A DNA stretch of 5,579 bases from positions 1-5,579 of the forward strand of contig JAQUUB010000194.1 in assembly GCA_028694115.1 (NCBI GenBank), in the 5' to 3' direction. Position 1 is the first letter of the stretch; the number at the start of each line of letters is the position of its first letter. The notes under the pieces are model-generated. The model worked only from the letters and a program-made list of their open reading frames with translations. It was not told the origin of the DNA and searched no databases. The position numbers and the translations under genes are program-made. Source of the stretch: Lachnospiraceae bacterium. Its GTDB lineage: Bacteria; Bacillota_A; Clostridia; Lachnospirales; Lachnospiraceae. Positions 1 through 5,579 of this stretch are shown one piece after another.

Positions 1-582
1 TAATGCACAATAAAATGCATCATCTTTTATCAGTGTGGAATAGGATTGTTCTCTCTCCCACTCTGGTCTTGACATATTCTTAGGATCTTCACTGTATTCT
101 GCCGGCATTATCTCCAATCCATACTCCGTACATAGCTGATTTGTTATCGGTTGTAAAATATTTTTCCAGTCTCCATTATGATATTGGAACTTATATCCTT
201 CTGTCATATCAATACTGTTAAATACAATATGTGCGTGTAGATGAGCTCTATCTGTATGAACTGCTACAACCACTTCATACTTCCCCTTTAGGAAGATTTC
301 AGCAAATCTCATCCCTATATCATACATAATCTCAGGTGTTCCCTCTCCCGGTTTAAGTGAAATAATTAAGCTATATCCCTGCCTGCCACCAGTCTTTTGA
401 AACATCTCTTTGGTTGCCTTCATCTGCTCATATGCAATTTCCAACGGGCAGTTAATACCGCCCGCCAGATTGGCAATTCCAAGTTTCATAGGATTCAAAA
501 TATAATTGATACTGTTCTTCAGATGAATGTCTTTTTGTTTTTTCTTACTAGACTTCATACACCCCACCTTGGTTACCGCCAT
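1..582 (-). CDS. MOBP-type relaxase, N-terminal part (runs off left edge)
   Basis: A conjugative relaxase nicks one strand at oriT, stays covalently bound through a tyrosine and pilots that strand into the recipient. The 194 visible residues contain the relaxase/HUH domain (pfam03432-like). Residues 109-118 read HTDRAHLHAH, the family histidine motif (His109, His114, His116, His118), followed by IVFNS. An early INYILNP (residues 25-31) places Tyr27 as the likely nucleophile, and ISLKPGEG (74-81) is another family block. The ATG at 580-582 is chosen because GGAGGTG at 591-597 lies 8 nt upstream. Its first 10 bp overlap the end of mobC, so translation is probably coupled. The C-terminal half lies outside the window, so intactness cannot be judged. 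Family call is firm; exact MOBP subfamily is not assigned. Confidence 0.93.
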   Translation of the reverse strand, partial: MAVTKVGCMKSSKKKQKDIHLKNSINYILNPMKLGIANLAGGINCPLEIAYEQMKATKEMFQKTGGRQGYSLIISLKPGEGTPEIMYDIGMRFAEIFLKGKYEVVVAVHTDRAHLHAHIVFNSIDMTEGYKFQYHNGDWKNILQPITNQLCTEYGLEIMPAEYSEDPKNMSRPEWEREQSYSTLIKDDAFYCAL

Positions 583-920
583 TTCTTTACCACCTCCATC
601 ATTAGTTTTTGAATTTCTTTTAACAAATCCACTATCTGTTTTAATATATGGTCACTAACTAGCCTATTTGTATTAGCCAGTCGTGTTAATTGGTTAATAT
701 TATTTCCAACCTTTGAAATCTGATTGATCAAATCTCGACGATCGATTGCAAATGAGGTATCTATTGTGCCACCATTCAAAATTAACTCTCTGACATATTC
801 ACTGGGATTTAATCCATTTGCTTCAGCATTTTTCCTCATCTGCTCCTCTTCTAATTGTGATAGTCGAACTGTGAAATTTCTTCTAGGTTCGACGTTCTGT
901 TTTCGTCTTCCTATAAGCAC
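573..920 (-). CDS. mobC: MobC-like relaxosome accessory protein
   Basis: MobC proteins bind and melt DNA around oriT and help the relaxase load. This 115-residue protein has the usual MobC size and order: a basic N-terminus, a ribbon-helix-helix-like segment at about residues 14-50 (RRNFTVRLSQLEEEQ, then GLNPSEYVRELIL), and the pfam05713 signature at 68-84, ISKVGNNINQLTRLANT. The C-terminus is helical. It starts at GTG (918-920): an in-frame TAA lies just upstream with no ATG between, and GGGAGG sits 2 nt before the GTG, a rather short spacing. The stop overlaps the relaxase start by 10 bp in the usual mobC-relaxase arrangement. The candidate oriT lies directly upstream. Family assignment is secure; the precise start is less so. 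Confidence 0.92.
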   Translation of the reverse strand: MLIGRRKQNVEPRRNFTVRLSQLEEEQMRKNAEANGLNPSEYVRELILNGGTIDTSFAIDRRDLINQISKVGNNINQLTRLANTNRLVSDHILKQIVDLLKEIQKLMMEVVKKWR

Positions 921-960: not shown

Positions 961-1045
961 ATTACTTAAAGATAGATTTTGCCAGATACGTATAACGCAG
1001 GGCGTTAAACAAAATCTGGTTAGGGGACCGCAATCCCCTAATACC
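961..1045. other. Candidate oriT (nested palindromes upstream of mobC)
   Basis: Three inverted repeats lie just upstream of mobC, where oriT sits in many MOBP elements. An outer pair, CCAGAT (982-987) and ATCTGG (1014-1019), encloses an inner hairpin TAACGC-agg-GCGTTA (993-1007). Next to it is a third hairpin, TAGGGGA (1021-1027), loop CCGCAA, TCCCCTA (1034-1040). Read on the minus strand the inner hairpin gives AACGCCCTGCG, loosely like the GCGCCCT core of R64/pC221-type nic sites. The structure is seen directly; oriT function and any nic position are inference. Confidence 0.55.
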
Positions 1046-1065: not shown

Positions 1066-1176
1066 GAATGTAATAATTCCATTTGTACTTATTACAATTT
1101 GTATCACTGCCACTGGGGCTGTTATTACAAATTGAGATATGAATTTGTGAATGTAATACCGTTTGTATCACTGTTT
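1066..1176. repeat. Iteron-like repeats between parR and the mob genes
   Basis: TTTGTATCACTG occurs exactly twice, at 1098-1109 and 1162-1173, 64 bp apart. TTATTACA occurs twice in direct orientation (1089-1096 and 1122-1129) and once inverted as TGTAATAA (1069-1076), with a close relative TGTAATAC at 1152-1159. On the minus strand the longer units read CAGTGATACAAA followed by a TATTA or TAATA block. No coding frame is credible in 921-1224. Clustered short repeats beside a parMR pair and a mob module suit a centromere (parC) or relaxosome-binding sites; which one is not decidable from sequence. Confidence 0.5.
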
Positions 1177-1224: not shown

Positions 1225-1743
1225 TTAGAAACCGTTTAAAAAACTTAGTGCTGAAGTGGGAAGTTCATTATTTCCATCCACTTCTGGGAGAACACCCATT
1301 TTCGGAACAGTCACCTCTGTCTGAACTGCTTTGTTGCTCTGCACCGCTGTTGTTGTTACTACTGGTGTTCCAACAGAACCCCCACCAGCTACCACTGCTT
1401 TTAGAACCTCTGTTACTGCTTTTGTTACTGCAAGTTCCACTGCTTTTTCAAGCATTGCCATGAGTGACTTGGATTCATTTTGAACTACCTCTATGAGTTC
1501 ATACTGAGCCGACTGTATGAACTCTTTTTTCAAAGAATCCAGTTTTCCCTTTGCTTCTTCAAAATCAAATTCATCTCTGGCATACTTCACTAAAACCCAT
1601 TTGATAAACTTACTTCTGTCTCCATAGATACTTTTCCTTGGCTCTTCGTCTATGGATAATAATAATTTCCAGACCAAAGCATCTTCGTCATGATTTAGGT
1701 TTAAGCGAAAAGGTACTGTCTGAAACATATCCTTATCACTCAT
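1225..1743 (-). CDS. parR: ParR-like partition adaptor / DNA-binding protein
   Basis: ParR proteins bind centromere repeats as ribbon-helix-helix dimers and link the DNA to growing ParM filaments. This 172-residue protein has an N-terminal segment (about 9-55) of RHH type: a strand TVPFRLNLNH, then helices through DEDALVWKLLLSID and GDRSKFIKWVLVKYA. A long amphipathic helix (about 60-118) follows, then a Gly/Thr/Val-rich low-complexity linker (119-158), then a short tail LPTSALSFLNGF at the extreme C-terminus. In plasmid R1-type systems the ParR C-terminus contacts ParM, so the tail is a plausible filament-binding motif. The start is ATG 1741-1743, with AGGTGG 4 nt upstream; a further-upstream in-frame ATG at 1794 lies deep inside parM and lacks that support. 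It overlaps the parM stop by 8 bp. The role rests on context and N-terminal style; overall similarity to named ParRs looks weak. Confidence 0.72.
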   Translation of the reverse strand: MSDKDMFQTVPFRLNLNHDEDALVWKLLLSIDEEPRKSIYGDRSKFIKWVLVKYARDEFDFEEAKGKLDSLKKEFIQSAQYELIEVVQNESKSLMAMLEKAVELAVTKAVTEVLKAVVAGGGSVGTPVVTTTAVQSNKAVQTEVTVPKMGVLPEVDGNNELPTSALSFLNGF

Positions 1744-2668
1744 GCAACCACCTGTCCGCTTTCTGTAATGCCAGATATTCATAACCAATGGCATTTGCCT
1801 TTACATCTTCCTGATAACAAATATTTGTGCCTCTAATTCTTCCAAATAATTTCATTACAGTAGCTCCTCCGCCTACATACACAATCGGCGTTAGTTCTGG
1901 ATCAAACCCATTTTCTTTCAGCTGAGCTTCTACGTTTTCAGCAAAAATGCAAAGCTGATCCTGTACAATTTCTGTAATCTCTTTTGGAAGATTGGATGTT
2001 CCTGTCATCATCACATCATGAATATCACTTTCATCCAAATAACGGTTTTTCCTCCGAAATACTGCCTTATTGACGTTAGCCATACAATTAATTAATGCTT
2101 CTGGGATGGTTATACATTCCCGCTCCACTGGAACATAGTTCTTGTTATGGATAATATCAATGGTCTTGGAACCAATGTCTACAATCAGCTGATTCGGTGC
2201 CAGCTTTCCTAAAATATTTGCTACTGCTGCATAACACTGTGGGTATAATAGAACTTCTTCAATTTCTATGAAATAGCTTTTTCCTTCATATACAAAGGTT
2301 ACAACCCCTCGTTTCAGATAGTTTCTAAAGCTAAGCTTCTCTTCCCCAAATCTGGTAAATGGAAGTCCTGCTGCAACTACGACCCTGACCCCATCTTCAC
2401 TAGACAAACCATAAAATTCTATTTCCTTTGCAATTGCCGCATATGTGAGTAAAAGATAATCTTCATCTTCTATTTTGGTGTCTTTCATGGGAAGTCTTCC
2501 TTCTCCGATTTTATAAAAAGTATCTTTGCACTCCATTGTCTTAGCTACTAACGTTGCTTCTGTACCAATTTCCTCAACACCATTATCAAAGATAAAATGT
2601 GGTGTCTTGATTGTTGAAAACCCATGGTCGATGGCACATAATAAAATGTTTTGTTCTTTAAAATACAT
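1736..2668 (-). CDS. parM: ParM/StbA-family actin-like ATPase
   Basis: ParM polymerises with ATP into filaments that push sister DNA copies apart. The 310-residue length fits the family (about 300-350). Actin-fold nucleotide motifs are in order: phosphate-1 AIDHGFSTIK (12-21, with Asp14, Gly16, Lys21), AAGLP (99-103), phosphate-2 VDIGSKTID (163-171, with Asp164, Gly166, Thr169, Asp171), adenosine loop YVGGGA (264-269) and ANAIGYE (291-297), like the ANAxGY block near the ParM C-terminus. All expected active-site features are present, so it should be functional. ATG at 2666-2668 follows AGGAGG with a 7-nt spacer. It overlaps parR by 8 bp and is probably cotranscribed. An actin-like cell-shape or Alp-type filament protein is the alternative, but adjacency to an RHH adaptor and mob genes favours DNA segregation. 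Confidence 0.9.
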   Translation of the reverse strand: MYFKEQNILLCAIDHGFSTIKTPHFIFDNGVEEIGTEATLVAKTMECKDTFYKIGEGRLPMKDTKIEDEDYLLLTYAAIAKEIEFYGLSSEDGVRVVVAAGLPFTRFGEEKLSFRNYLKRGVVTFVYEGKSYFIEIEEVLLYPQCYAAVANILGKLAPNQLIVDIGSKTIDIIHNKNYVPVERECITIPEALINCMANVNKAVFRRKNRYLDESDIHDVMMTGTSNLPKEITEIVQDQLCIFAENVEAQLKENGFDPELTPIVYVGGGATVMKLFGRIRGTNICYQEDVKANAIGYEYLALQKADRWLHE

Positions 2669-2819
2669 AAATTTTCCTCCTGCCGTTACGGCTAATACAA
2701 TGTTAATAGTTACATTCCTATGAACAAAAGTTCTGATTGTAACAGCCGGAGTCCTTTGTTATACTGTACTTGCGAGATACATAGAACAAGTTCCGGCTTG
2801 TTACTACCAAGTCCTTTCC
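2669..2819 (-). promoter_or_regulatory. parM upstream control region / candidate centromere
   Basis: This 151-bp non-coding stretch carries two imperfect direct repeats, 2722-2758 and 2784-2818, each beginning with a small palindrome (GAACAAAAGTTC or GAACAAGTTC) and ending in AGTCCTTT, about 60 bp apart. GTAACAGCCGG (2739-2749) and CCGGCTTGTTAC (2793-2804) form an inverted pair with a one-base bulge. An 11-bp palindrome GCCGTTACGGC (2682-2692) adjoins the parM ribosome binding site. A possible minus-strand -10, TATAAC (2758-2763), lies between the repeats but lacks a good -35. In plasmid R1, parC lies just upstream of parM and doubles as operator, so ParR autoregulation here is a reasonable inference. 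Confidence 0.55.
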
Positions 2820-3098
2820 CTAGTCGGTAAGGACTTTTTCTTTTGCTTCATAGTTAGCATCTTCTGCTACCATTGACTGATTTTTTTCAAGATCATCAGC
2901 CGGATTGTAGTAATCTGCATATCCATATACCTTCTGTTCAAAGTATTTTCTTGGACATCTGCCTCGGATAATTAAAAATCCTTTTGCAGCAAGTTCTGCA
3001 TTATACTTTTTGATAATGGAATATGCTTTTGTCTTACCAACTCCAAGCATCTGTTGTACTTCATCAACTTCAATAAAAGTCTCTTTCATTCCTACCAT
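2820..3098 (-). CDS. Small helix-turn-helix protein, excisionase/activator-like
   Basis: A 92-residue DNA-binding protein. Residues 11-34 (VDEVQQMLGVGKTKAYSIIKKYN) look like a MerR/excisionase-type helix-turn-helix, followed by FLIIRGRCPRKYFEQKVYG (41-59), a strand-turn-strand segment common in small HTH proteins of Firmicute mobile elements. The tail (65-92) is acidic and probably disordered. Such proteins are annotated as excisionase-like (recombination directionality factors) or as regulators of transfer genes; the sequence does not separate these. ATG 3096-3098 is chosen because AAAGGAG lies 7 nt upstream; the TTG two codons earlier is too close to it, and another ATG at 3087-3089 has poorer spacing. 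It is divergent from the XRE repressor and is read from the consensus leftward promoter, so it is probably the first gene of the leftward operon. Confidence 0.8.
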   Translation of the reverse strand: MVGMKETFIEVDEVQQMLGVGKTKAYSIIKKYNAELAAKGFLIIRGRCPRKYFEQKVYGYADYYNPADDLEKNQSMVAEDANYEAKEKVLTD

Positions 3099-3174
3099 AC
3101 GCAAGCTCCTTTCTATATAGTATTAAACATTTTGCTATATCGTTCACAAACACGCAATCTGTTTTCGTGTTTAC

Positions 3175-3203
3175 AGTATATTTCATTCATTTCGTGTTGT
3201 CAA
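3175..3203 (-). promoter_or_regulatory. Leftward sigma-A promoter for the HTH gene
   Basis: On the minus strand TTGACA (3198-3203) is followed by a 17-nt spacer and TATACT (3175-3180), a near-perfect vegetative promoter. A TTTCGTGTT element (3190-3198) sits in the spacer and touches the -35, and another (3163-3171) covers the expected transcription start, so a bound protein would block the promoter. It would drive the HTH gene and perhaps parM, parR and the mob genes. Confidence 0.85.
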
Positions 3204-3227
3204 TAGATTTTCTTCTAAAACACGAAC

Positions 3228-3256
3228 TTGACTTTCGTGTTAATCTGTTATATACT
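3228..3256 (+). promoter_or_regulatory. Rightward sigma-A promoter for the XRE repressor
   Basis: TTGACT (3228-3233), 17-nt spacer, TATACT (3251-3256) on the plus strand. The -35 lies inside an 8-bp inverted repeat, AACACGAA (3219-3226) and TTCGTGTT (3234-3241), an arrangement expected for autorepression. Transcription would begin near 3263, leaving a leader of about 55 nt before the ATG at 3319. It may also supply the integrase, since no clear separate promoter is seen before that gene. Confidence 0.85.
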
Positions 3257-3318
3257 TTTCACAAAGTTACAAATAGTACTTTTAATGTAAATATATTTCG
3301 TGTAAAGGAGTGAACACA

Positions 3319-3987
3319 ATGGCATCTCAAGCACTAAGTCCAGAACAAATTGCAGCTAATATCAAAAGAAAAAGAAAAGAAAAAAAGATTAGCCAGAAAA
3401 AGTTGGCAGAACTTATTGATAAAACAGAACGAACCGTTCAAAACTACGAATCTGGACAAACCGATTTTTCTATGTCTATCATCAAAGATATTGCTACCGC
3501 ACTAGATATTAATTTTCGTGAATTGATTTCTACGCCAGAACATCAAGATGGTATGAATGTTGGGATTGACGGAAGAAATTCCTATAGAAACAAATACATG
3601 CTAGATTCTTTTGCGGATGTAATAAATGTTTTATTTAAAATTCAAGAAACTTATGATTTTAGCATGAAGCTTGATATTGCAAAACCACCAGAAGATAAAG
3701 AATGGAAAGCTTCTATCTCCGTTGATGGAAAAGGAGCCAGCAAATATGATATGGACTTTTGCCTATTTTTAGAAAACTGGAAAGCAAAAATGGACCAGTT
3801 ATATAATGGAAAATTAAGTATTGACAGATACATGGACTGGCAAGCAGAAACCATTGCTTATTACGCATCCAGTACTTTGACTCCAATGTTTGAAAGACCA
3901 GACTTAGAAGAATACACATCAGAACTGGGCAACCAAGTTTATCGTTGGAAAAACCCATTTACAACAGAAGACAATAAGGATAAATAA
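3319..3987 (+). CDS. XRE-family transcriptional repressor with uncharacterised C-terminal domain
   Basis: A 222-residue regulator. Residues 11-70 are a Cro/C1-type helix-turn-helix: IAANIKRKRKEKKISQKKLAELI, then TERTVQNYESGQTDFSM and a closing helix IATALDINFRELI. Residues 75-222 form a second domain I do not recognise; it has aromatic helical stretches (for example FLENWKAKMDQLYNG, 150-164). It shows neither the HExxH metalloprotease motif of ImmA partners nor an evident S24 LexA-type serine protease core. ATG 3319 is chosen because AAAGGAG (3304-3310) lies 8 nt upstream; the GTG at 3310 overlaps that site. By analogy to phage and ICE switches it should repress the divergent promoters and itself through the TTTCGTGTT array. 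How repression is relieved is unknown; the C-terminal domain is the obvious candidate sensor. No terminator is evident before the integrase. Confidence 0.85.
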   Translation: MASQALSPEQIAANIKRKRKEKKISQKKLAELIDKTERTVQNYESGQTDFSMSIIKDIATALDINFRELISTPEHQDGMNVGIDGRNSYRNKYMLDSFADVINVLFKIQETYDFSMKLDIAKPPEDKEWKASISVDGKGASKYDMDFCLFLENWKAKMDQLYNGKLSIDRYMDWQAETIAYYASSTLTPMFERPDLEEYTSELGNQVYRWKNPFTTEDNKDK

Positions 3988-4184: not shown

Positions 4185-5369
4185 ATGCCAGCTTACAAAG
4201 ATGATAAAACTGGTAAATGGTTTGCCAAATTCTATTATACGGATTGGCAAGGTAACAACAAACAAAAGTGGAAACGAGGATTCGCCACCAAAAAGGAAGC
4301 CTTAGCATTTGAGAGAGAATTTCTAGAGAAACAGGCCTGTAATCCCGATATGACATTTCAATCACTTTATGAAACCTATATTGAGGATATGGAGGGAAGG
4401 TTAAAAGATTCTACCATCCAACATAAGCGCAATATCTACGAAACAAAGATTCTTCCATTCTTTAGCAAGATTCCAATTAATGAAATCAAGGCAACGGATA
4501 TTCGAAGATGGCAGACAAAACTTATGAAAGACGAGTACAACTACAAGCCCACTTATCTAAAATCCATCAACAATCAAATGAACTGTATTATGAATTATGC
4601 CAAACGTTTCTATGACCTTAATACCGATCCATGTGGGAAGGCCGGAAGTATGGGACGAAGTGATGCCGAGGAAATGGACTTCTGGACATTGGATGAATAT
4701 CTTGCTTTTCAGGAAGGTATTAAAGACAAAGCTGTTTCGTATCTATGCTTTGAAGTTCTTTATTGGACAGGTATGCGAGAAGGAGAATTACTTGCTCTAA
4801 CAGCAGAAGATATTAATCTAGTTGATAAGACCATCCGTATTTGTAAGTCTTATTCACGTAGTCATGGGAAAGATATTATTTCTACCCCTAAGACAAAAAA
4901 GAGCAAACGTGTTGTTCCTATTCCTGATTTTCTTTGCCAGGAACTAACAGAGTATATGAATTCTATGTATATGCCTCGTCCAAAGGATAGACTGTTTCCT
5001 TACACAAAATCCTATCTCGCACACGAGATGCAACGTGGATGCAAGACAACCGGCATTAAGAAAATACGAATTCACGATCTTCGCCACAGTCACGCCAGTT
5101 TGTTAATCAATCAAGGCTGTGACGCTCTCATGCTTGCCGACAGACTTGGACACGAGAAAGTATCCACAACACTTAATACTTACTCTCACCTATTTCCACA
5201 TAAACAGCAGGCATTGGTCCATAGTCTTGAATCACTTGTTGGTGTCACTAATCCAGTACCAGAACCACCCGTAGGTGTGCCAGGTATTCCACCAGTCATA
5301 GAACCTGAAGTTACAAAAGAAAAAGCATCAGGAAATGTTATCCAAATGCCAATTCGAAAAATTATTTAA
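4185..5369 (+). CDS. int: Tyrosine recombinase / phage-type integrase
   Basis: It catalyses site-specific integration and excision of the element between attP and attB. The 394 residues are normal for the family. Order: N-terminal arm-type DNA-binding domain (about 1-47, YKDDKTGKWFAKFYYTD, then FATKKEALAFEREFLEK), SAM-like core-binding domain (about 56-145), catalytic domain (about 165-350). The catalytic set is complete: Arg198 (TGMREGELL), Lys236 (TPKTKKS), His297 and Arg300 (HDLRHSHAS), His323 (LGHEKVS) and Tyr333 (NTYSHL). A Pro/Val-rich tail (355-377) follows the catalytic domain and is probably flexible. ATG 4185 has AAGGAG 8 nt upstream. It lies in the same direction as the XRE repressor, with a 197-bp leader between and no excisionase directly beside it; the divergent small HTH protein may take that role. 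It is more like phage-type Arm-DNA-bind integrases than Tn916/Tn1549 Int (judgement by eye). Confidence 0.95.
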   Translation: MPAYKDDKTGKWFAKFYYTDWQGNNKQKWKRGFATKKEALAFEREFLEKQACNPDMTFQSLYETYIEDMEGRLKDSTIQHKRNIYETKILPFFSKIPINEIKATDIRRWQTKLMKDEYNYKPTYLKSINNQMNCIMNYAKRFYDLNTDPCGKAGSMGRSDAEEMDFWTLDEYLAFQEGIKDKAVSYLCFEVLYWTGMREGELLALTAEDINLVDKTIRICKSYSRSHGKDIISTPKTKKSKRVVPIPDFLCQELTEYMNSMYMPRPKDRLFPYTKSYLAHEMQRGCKTTGIKKIRIHDLRHSHASLLINQGCDALMLADRLGHEKVSTTLNTYSHLFPHKQQALVHSLESLVGVTNPVPEPPVGVPGIPPVIEPEVTKEKASGNVIQMPIRKII

Positions 5370-5454: not shown

Positions 5455-5579
5455 CTACTAATATCTAAATGAATGAAGAATATTTCTTAGTAGCAAAGTA
5501 GTAGCAGAGGCAAAAGGAAAGTCCGGGAGCGCCCTATTTATAAGGCTTCCCAGACTTGTGGATGCTATTCAAACTCGAT
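5455..5579. other. Probable element end / att region
   Basis: Beyond the integrase lies a non-coding stretch to the window edge. CTACTAA (5455-5461) and TTAGTAG (5487-5493) form an inverted repeat. TAGTAGCA occurs twice, 5488-5495 and 5499-5506. An imperfect hairpin spans 5519-5557 (AAGTC/GACTT, GGGA/TCCC, GCC/GGC). GATGCTATT at 5561-5569 repeats 5391-5399. Integrative elements normally carry int beside one att end, with arm-type repeats nearby, so an att core is expected around here. No tRNA gene or recognisable chromosomal gene is visible, and without the other element end the core cannot be defined. Confidence 0.4.

Follow-up and report, generated by a model that had tools for sequence, protein, structure and literature searches.

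Gene content and layout of the locus

The 5579-base stretch of DNA analysed here, referred to below as the window, is probably the integrase-side part of an integrative mobilizable element with its insertion site at the 3' end of guaA. In right-to-left order, its minus strand carries xis, parM, parR, mobC and a relaxase gene, and its plus strand carries an XRE-family repressor followed by a tyrosine integrase. In other words, parM and parR sit between mobC and the relaxase on one side and xis, the repressor and the integrase on the other. The features are the following.

1..582, minus strand: relaxase with a MobA/VirD2-like nuclease domain (PF03432, 1.1e-35), cut by the window end
573..920, minus strand: mobC, NikA/MobC-like mobilization accessory protein (NikA-like 2.9e-14, MobC 4.5e-9)
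982..1041, minus strand: oriT-like hairpin pair, TTAGGGGA..TCCCCTAA and CCAGAT..AACGC..GCGTT..ATCTGG, conserved in related loci
1070..1171, unstranded: candidate parC, six GTNNNAC-type heptamers in a 12 + 20 = 32-bp register
1165-1171, 1153-1159, 1122-1128, 1101-1107, 1089-1095 and 1070-1076, unstranded: the heptamers of the candidate parC, of palindromic type
1225..1743, minus strand: parR, ParR-like adaptor of 172 aa, ATG at 1743 with AGGTGG upstream
1736..2668, minus strand: parM, ParM/Alp-family actin-fold ATPase of 310 aa, ATG start with an AGGAGG Shine-Dalgarno sequence
2820..3098, minus strand: xis, ICEBs1-Xis-like excisionase (NF047858, 2.7e-14, below cut-off)
3175..3203, minus strand: sigma-A-like xis promoter, TTGACA-17-TATACT, probably reading on into parM-parR
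3164..3303, unstranded: five ACACGAA/TTCGTGT repeats, candidate repressor operators on, between and just beyond the divergent promoters
3319..3987, plus strand: XRE-family repressor (HTH_3, 1.7e-13; listed ORF from GTG 3310)
4185..5369, plus strand: tyrosine integrase (PF00589, 2.7e-25)
5565..5579, minus strand: right end of the element and presumed attachment site, ATCGAGTTTGAATAG, which equals the last guaA codons (I E F E stop)

The relaxase is represented by its first 194 codons only, xis likely starts at ATG 3098 (the listed ORF begins at TTG 3104), and the gap between parR and mobC measures 300 bases. An integrase, xis and an attachment site of the element's own are all present, with the window covering the integrase-side end only. 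Related loci, 82 in number, come from a profile scan of genome contigs, an earlier contig scan without profiles having given none. All seven genes of the window are kept in 9 of the 82 loci (tblastn), and most of the closest protein relatives of named source belong to Lachnospiraceae. Accordingly, the host is probably a member of this family, and the element probably comes from the chromosome of a gut bacterium.

The core found at the right end also closes a GMP synthase C-terminal domain (PF00958) in three relatives (L002, L009, L025); L020 has a GMP synthase ORF 3.8 kb left of parM, and elsewhere among the relatives (e.g. L003, L005, L006) a similar core is flanked by other sequence. L025 and L020 are from cultured commensals, Roseburia hominis An869 and Kineothrix alysoides respectively. 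A direct-repeat search for the far element ends returned only two chance-like repeats of 13-14 bases (L006, L009), and no second copy of the end core turned up in the range searched. Inspection by eye of the ORFs of three related loci revealed no replication gene, and none of the ORFs in the covered part of L001, L003 and L006 was recognised as a secretion gene.

Some observations concern the relatives themselves. Past the integrase end, the flanks of L006 (at 6881) and L011 (at 6934) differ from guaA, and a second fragment of an integrase gene lies near the start of the L006 locus, at 6-353; together, these features suggest elements stacked in tandem. L020 has guaA nearby, parM, parR, the array and an oriT-like element of the third kind described below, with no relaxase, MobC or integrase detected using the window's proteins; possibly, it relies on the relaxase of another element. 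Restriction-modification genes lie beyond the mob region or parR in L006 (14530-20773, type I-like by eye), L012 (15430-17935, BpuJI type) and L020 (12698-14260, HsdM), and partition-bearing elements are possible carriers of phage defence.

ParM and ParR

The structure model of the window's ParM (pLDDT 90.7) has an actin fold of the ParM/Alp type, with Dh-cParM1 and Cbc-ParM among the closest solved folds. Residues D14, G16, K21, D164, G166, D171 and G268 are invariant across 25 sequences, and presumably they have a role in nucleotide binding. Distant ParM relatives are encoded in thirteen unannotated 'Bacteriophage sp.' records from human faeces (MT835792-MT839773); some of these records may represent plasmids or integrative elements instead of phages. 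A different ParM class has a long ORF, of about 1600 codons, directly after parM or parR (L045:11720-16624, L067:11723-16543, L075:10860-15773), the product in L045 being a SpaA-repeat, LPXTG-anchored surface protein.

The parR gene overlaps parM by 8 bases. A start at 1794 was considered and rejected in favour of ATG 1743, which has a good Shine-Dalgarno sequence and is the start given for many of 50 homologues. As a family (50 proteins), ParR is far more divergent than ParM, and a ParR-like ORF follows parM in 78 of the 82 loci (judged by eye, longest ORF only), the four exceptions being L010, L031 and L035, where no ORF was listed, and L075, where the longest ORF encodes a surface protein. 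The protein has an N-terminal FRLNL...S.FIK pattern, a long helix, a linker and a conserved C-terminal helix. Its tail, ...LPTSALSFL..F, is largely conserved, with F168, L169 and F172 invariant in 25 aligned sequences and carried in the model by a short C-terminal helix; other ParR classes have comparable tails (...VMAFL.., ...ALFYL.., ...ALDYF..). In an alignment of thirteen N-termini taken from different classes, T-V-x-F-R-L-N-L precedes a first helix and G-x-S-x-F-I-K a second one, and this order, as a pattern with no fold match behind it, would be that expected of a ribbon-helix-helix protein. Namely, the family library, the PDB and fold searches (model pLDDT 58.8) gave no match to such a fold, a profile comparison of the ParR N-termini with MobC gave 2.6% probability, and the PDB profile search placed the 70-aa chain 2q2k, which we take to be pSK41 ParR, at E 1.4, below unrelated proteins and not significant.

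A preliminary description of this DNA had reported a complete ParM-like ATPase and a ParR-like adaptor inside an integrative element. The fold model and the ParM/Alp family assignment bear out the former, and the setting is upheld by the integrase and relaxase that lie alongside the pair and are conserved there in the nine loci. As for the adaptor, the adjacent, overlapping gene stands, while the ribbon-helix-helix fold proposed as its check found no match in the searches.

Both genes are under purifying selection: over 12 pairs of relatives, dN/dS is 0.04-0.14 for parM and 0.03-0.29 for parR. These values bear on the idea that parM and parR are neutral passengers or the decaying remains of an integrated plasmid, in favour of which one can argue that no replication gene was recognised by eye near them. 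Such low ratios, together with intact ORFs, their overlap, the array described below and a gene order kept in related loci, make this idea extremely improbable.

A candidate centromere downstream of parR

Downstream of parR, inside the gap before mobC, lies an array of three exact heptamers and three with one core mismatch, in which the start-to-start spacing alternates between 12 and 20. In a lag scan over 11 arrays, including that of the window, the excess self-match was 53 at lag 12 and 69 at lag 32; lags 31 and 33 gave 37 and 42, and all remaining lags gave 1-26. Because the 32/12 register was chosen after looking, the array statistics are to be taken as descriptive: the window scores 10.5, a value reached by 0 of 5000 dinucleotide shuffles (maximum 10.0), and no control window out of 29,611 reaches 10 (maximum 9.5). 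These controls were overlapping 220-bp windows from the loci, 6469 of them GC-matched, with seven loci excluded as near-duplicates, cut, or carrying untested arrays. In ten other loci, with the window not included, 32/12 is the best of 153 registers; in the window alone, six neighbouring registers tie for best, 32/12 among them. A simple count of repeated 9-mers gave no signal in the window (12 of 40 shuffles at or above), the signal appearing in the spaced register alone.

We scored 29 regions for the array, namely the window and 28 of the 82 loci, and found it after parR in 19, the window and 18 loci. None of 200 shuffles scored at or above the true sequence in 18 of these 19 regions, and one of 200 did so in L020; the scores of L004, L020 and L030 are only 8.5-9, a level matched by 35 of the 29,611 controls. 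In the ten other loci, which have a different ParR type, the array is absent, with 3 to 191 of 200 shuffles scoring no lower than the true sequence.

A parC upstream of parM was also considered and rejected, as 17 of 50 shuffles score at or above the upstream region of the window; neither the window nor any of the 18 loci with the array after parR has one upstream, where 15 to 50 of 50 shuffles equal or exceed the true score. In L063 and L082, two loci of the other class, the upstream signal is weak, being equalled or exceeded by 2 and 1 of 50 shuffles. We count the downstream position as a variant, because the precise structure of parC is reported to vary between plasmids (PMC9426499).

Taken together, parM, parR and the array very probably form a type II (actin-type) ParMRC module, and the DNA site needed by such a system seems to be present in the candidate parC. 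The preliminary description had a system of two parts, of which the pair holds and a candidate third part, the parC array, went unnoticed. In fact, most of the functional argument is drawn from features absent from it: the candidate parC, the oriT-like hairpins, the candidate repressor operators and the guaA site.

The array class follows ParR

Lying between parR and mobC and beside oriT, the array could instead be a binding site for MobC or the relaxosome, or an operator of the mob operon, unrelated to ParR; MobC/NikA-type proteins bind near oriT. It is instructive, in this regard, to compare loci in which the two proteins have diverged to different degrees. Between L001 and L005, MobC is 90% identical, sharing a predicted strand that we take to be the DNA-contact strand, and the ParR N-terminus is 33% identical; the MobC of L005 is 92% identical to those of L002 and L025. 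More generally, MobC identity is 82-92% between L001-L003/L025 and L005/L007, while the array class switches with ParR. In particular, TGTAATNA occurs in 4-5 copies in the arrays of L001, L002, L003, L021 and L025 and in none in L005, L006, L007 and L009, and GTAATACC occurs in 2-5 copies in the latter four and in none in the former five, both motifs having been picked after inspection. The window's array is intermediate, with three copies of TGTAATNA and one of GTAATACC, and a looser motif, YYGTAAT, does not separate the classes (2-3 copies in both). What is more, L012-L015, in which no MobC is detectable with that of the window, keep the array directly after parR. With an array class that changes with ParR despite such similar MobC proteins, we regard a MobC or mob operon site as very unlikely.

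The hairpins beside the arrays stay similar (91% over 57 bases between L001 and L005), and an array class that changes with ParR next to constant hairpins would have the look of a swapped parM-parR-parC cassette. In C. perfringens plasmids, ParR and parC interact within a family only, which is tied to incompatibility (PMC9426499). Several elements can share one host, since bacterium D16-36 contributes four loci (L012, L016, L041, L060) and six ParM matches, including a short one, occur in its genome.

oriT-like elements beside the array

The hairpin pair directly adjoins the array. Folded as single-stranded DNA, the window's hairpins give z -3.98 (0 of 200 shuffles), and the hairpin core is highly conserved among ten aligned sequences. 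The core pattern occurs in five of 397 family genomes, all five being among the nine of 397 with a ParR match; core and match lie within 1 kb of each other in four of the five and on different contigs in G271. A second oriT-like kind occupies the same place in L017, L018, L019, L023 and L030, and a third in L012-L015. Six examples drawn from the three kinds have z between -4.2 and -8.8 (0 of 200 shuffles each). At E 1e-3, blastn gives matches within each kind (main match 83-91%) and none between kinds; the L020 element matches the third kind, and that of L022 matches none by blastn and is a variant seen by eye. The relaxases beside the other two kinds are 45-47% and 33-36% identical to that of the window over the aligned part (the L017 contig ends before the mob genes, and no relaxase was found beside that of L020). 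Of the 19 regions with the array, 17 have one of the three elements directly beyond it; in L004, none is visible before the contig ends, about 180 bases past parR. The designation as oriT is taken from structure and position only, because plasmid searches with all three elements as queries gave no match.

The strongly folding elements just past the array in those 17 regions count in favour of a role that is first of all in transfer, with ParR on the array and ParM filaments bringing the relaxosome to the secretion channel of a helper or stimulating nicking, and with segregation secondary or absent. There are precedents: ParM and ParR of R1 interact with and stimulate the TraI relaxase and promote transfer (PMC4949242), R388 stbABC adjoins oriT and affects both stability and transfer (PMC3098194), and deletion of srpM, srpR or both cut R391 transfer about 4-14-fold, an effect its authors call slight (PMC4489591). 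However, the adjacency of array and oriT may reflect modular inheritance alone, and srpMRC stabilised an unrelated plasmid too (PMC4489591). On balance, we consider a primary role in transfer unlikely.

Control of xis, parM and parR

The xis promoter faces a divergent repressor promoter. Inspection by eye of eight relatives shows in each a TTGACA on the xis side followed, some 17 bases later, by a TATAAT-like box, a strict promoter expression matching only two of them, L003 and L011. ICEBs1-type switches share with the window a Xis relative, an XRE repressor, divergent promoters and a tyrosine integrase; ICEBs1 is a full ICE that is not known to carry ParMR, unlike the element of the window. 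In the stretch from xis to parM, the scan listed neither a promoter-like nor a terminator-like site on the parM strand, so that transcription of parM-parR probably starts at the xis promoter; as this operator-flanked promoter is the one promoter-like site that the scan gave for the strand, partition may switch on with excision. In R1, the centromere flanks the par promoter, which is repressed by ParR binding (PMC5016525). Here, unlike in R1, the array is far from the xis promoter, and control would therefore have passed to the repressor of the element.

Between xis and parM (window 2669-2822, minus strand) there is also a hairpin-forming stretch, found at L001:9917, L006:9851, L011:9743 and others as well, in which the motif GTATCTCGCAARTAC hardly varies across the window and 17 loci (16 places, L083 being a repeat of L001). 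Compensatory support is weak (4 of 20 pairs), and a comparison with Rfam gave no match at E up to 1. A leader RNA, a single-strand origin and a regulatory site are all possible.

Comparison with known systems

The preliminary description held that partition loci belong to plasmids, which is not supported in that form, given srpMRC (PMC4489591) and chromosome-borne ParMs (PMC12270681). Namely, ICEs of the SXT/R391 family carry in srpMRC an experimentally active ParM-type system, which raised the stability of a test plasmid 1.8-2.1-fold; stability required the relaxase and oriT, and deletion of srpM left R391 loss unchanged in one background and gave higher stability in another (PMC4489591). As here, this is an actin-type partition locus in an integrative element with expression tied to induction, and its centromere region, srpC, shares the 615-bp srpM-mobI intergenic region with oriT, much as the array lies beside the oriT-like site (PMC4489591). 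In contrast to the present mobilizable element of probable Lachnospiraceae origin, SXT/R391 is a gammaproteobacterial self-transmissible ICE, its srpC has four 13-bp repeats upstream of srpM rather than an array of 32-bp period downstream of parR, and its locus is activator-driven (SetCD) in an operon with int rather than, apparently, repressor-controlled with xis (PMC4489591).

The plasmid ParMRC systems (families of R1, pSK41 and C. perfringens pCW3) have the same ParM fold, adjacent ParR gene and short-repeat array, with ParR and parC types that change together, but their parC is usually upstream of parM and not, as here, downstream, at oriT and away from the likely promoter (PMC9426499, PMC5016525). 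IME_Rho_tet was considered as a description of this element and rejected, having a serine recombinase and a main text without guaA, partition or segregation (PMC12904643). Dh-cParM1 and Cb-cParM are chromosome-borne and close solved folds, with cParRs predicted to contain ribbon-helix-helix motifs, and the main text of that report does not mention integrative, mobile or integrase (PMC12270681). For the ParM studied here, on the other hand, we can name the element that carries it, along with an oriT-like site and a candidate centromere.

StbA and StbB of R388, unlike the proteins studied here, are not known to be an actin-type ParM/ParR pair. The likeness lies in a segregation locus that adjoins oriT and affects stability as well as conjugation (PMC3098194). 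Among the matches listed in the open-licence literature, we found no actin-type partition locus in a Firmicutes mobilizable element, and no centromere downstream of parR or paired with several dissimilar oriT-like elements. SXT/R391 already offers both an integrative element with actin-type partition and a centromere near oriT; new here are a Gram-positive mobilizable family, a candidate centromere that follows the par genes and the combination of this site with different putative oriTs.

Proposed role and implications

Once excised, a mobilizable element in gut Firmicutes is commonly regarded as transient. Our results suggest that the excised circle is cared for much like a plasmid, and the main job of the module is likely the segregation of excised, perhaps relaxase-copied, circles. 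The ParM fold, the conserved gene pair, the array and its change with ParR class, and the adjoining hairpins are direct results of the computation, and from them we infer ParR binding, filament action, co-transcription, circle copying and segregation, in the following manner. In the integrated state, the XRE repressor would hold the xis promoter off. Upon induction, xis, parM and parR would probably be co-transcribed, Xis and the integrase would free the circle, and nicking at oriT by the relaxase would serve transfer and, perhaps, rolling-circle copying. Dimers of ParR would then bind the array of 32-bp period beside oriT and offer their C-terminal tails to ParM, whose nucleotide-driven filaments would push or hold the circle copies apart, so that neither daughter cell would lose the element before reintegration or transfer. 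The copying of the circle is an assumption, because no replication gene was recognised by eye in the three related loci.

One can also imagine, if only tentatively, that inheritance and transfer are served by one machine, with parMR, centromere and oriT making up a single swappable module. Here, the filament would act at the transfer origin, segregating relaxase-copied circles and handing them to the mating channel; the excision repressor would switch the machine on; the module would be kept with at least three dissimilar oriT-like elements; and the ParR and array classes would diverge since elements that share a cell must avoid incompatibility. We consider this combination somewhat doubtful, and segregation of the excised circles is still the reading that we prefer.

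To our knowledge, chromosome-borne ParMs have no agreed role, and a group of them is now tied to mobilizable elements with a candidate centromere beside oriT. What is more, the question of whether partition machines act in transfer becomes directly testable by deletion of an array of about 100 bp. Finally, segregation of this kind would extend the active partition of integrative elements from gammaproteobacterial ICEs to the mobilizable elements of gut Firmicutes.
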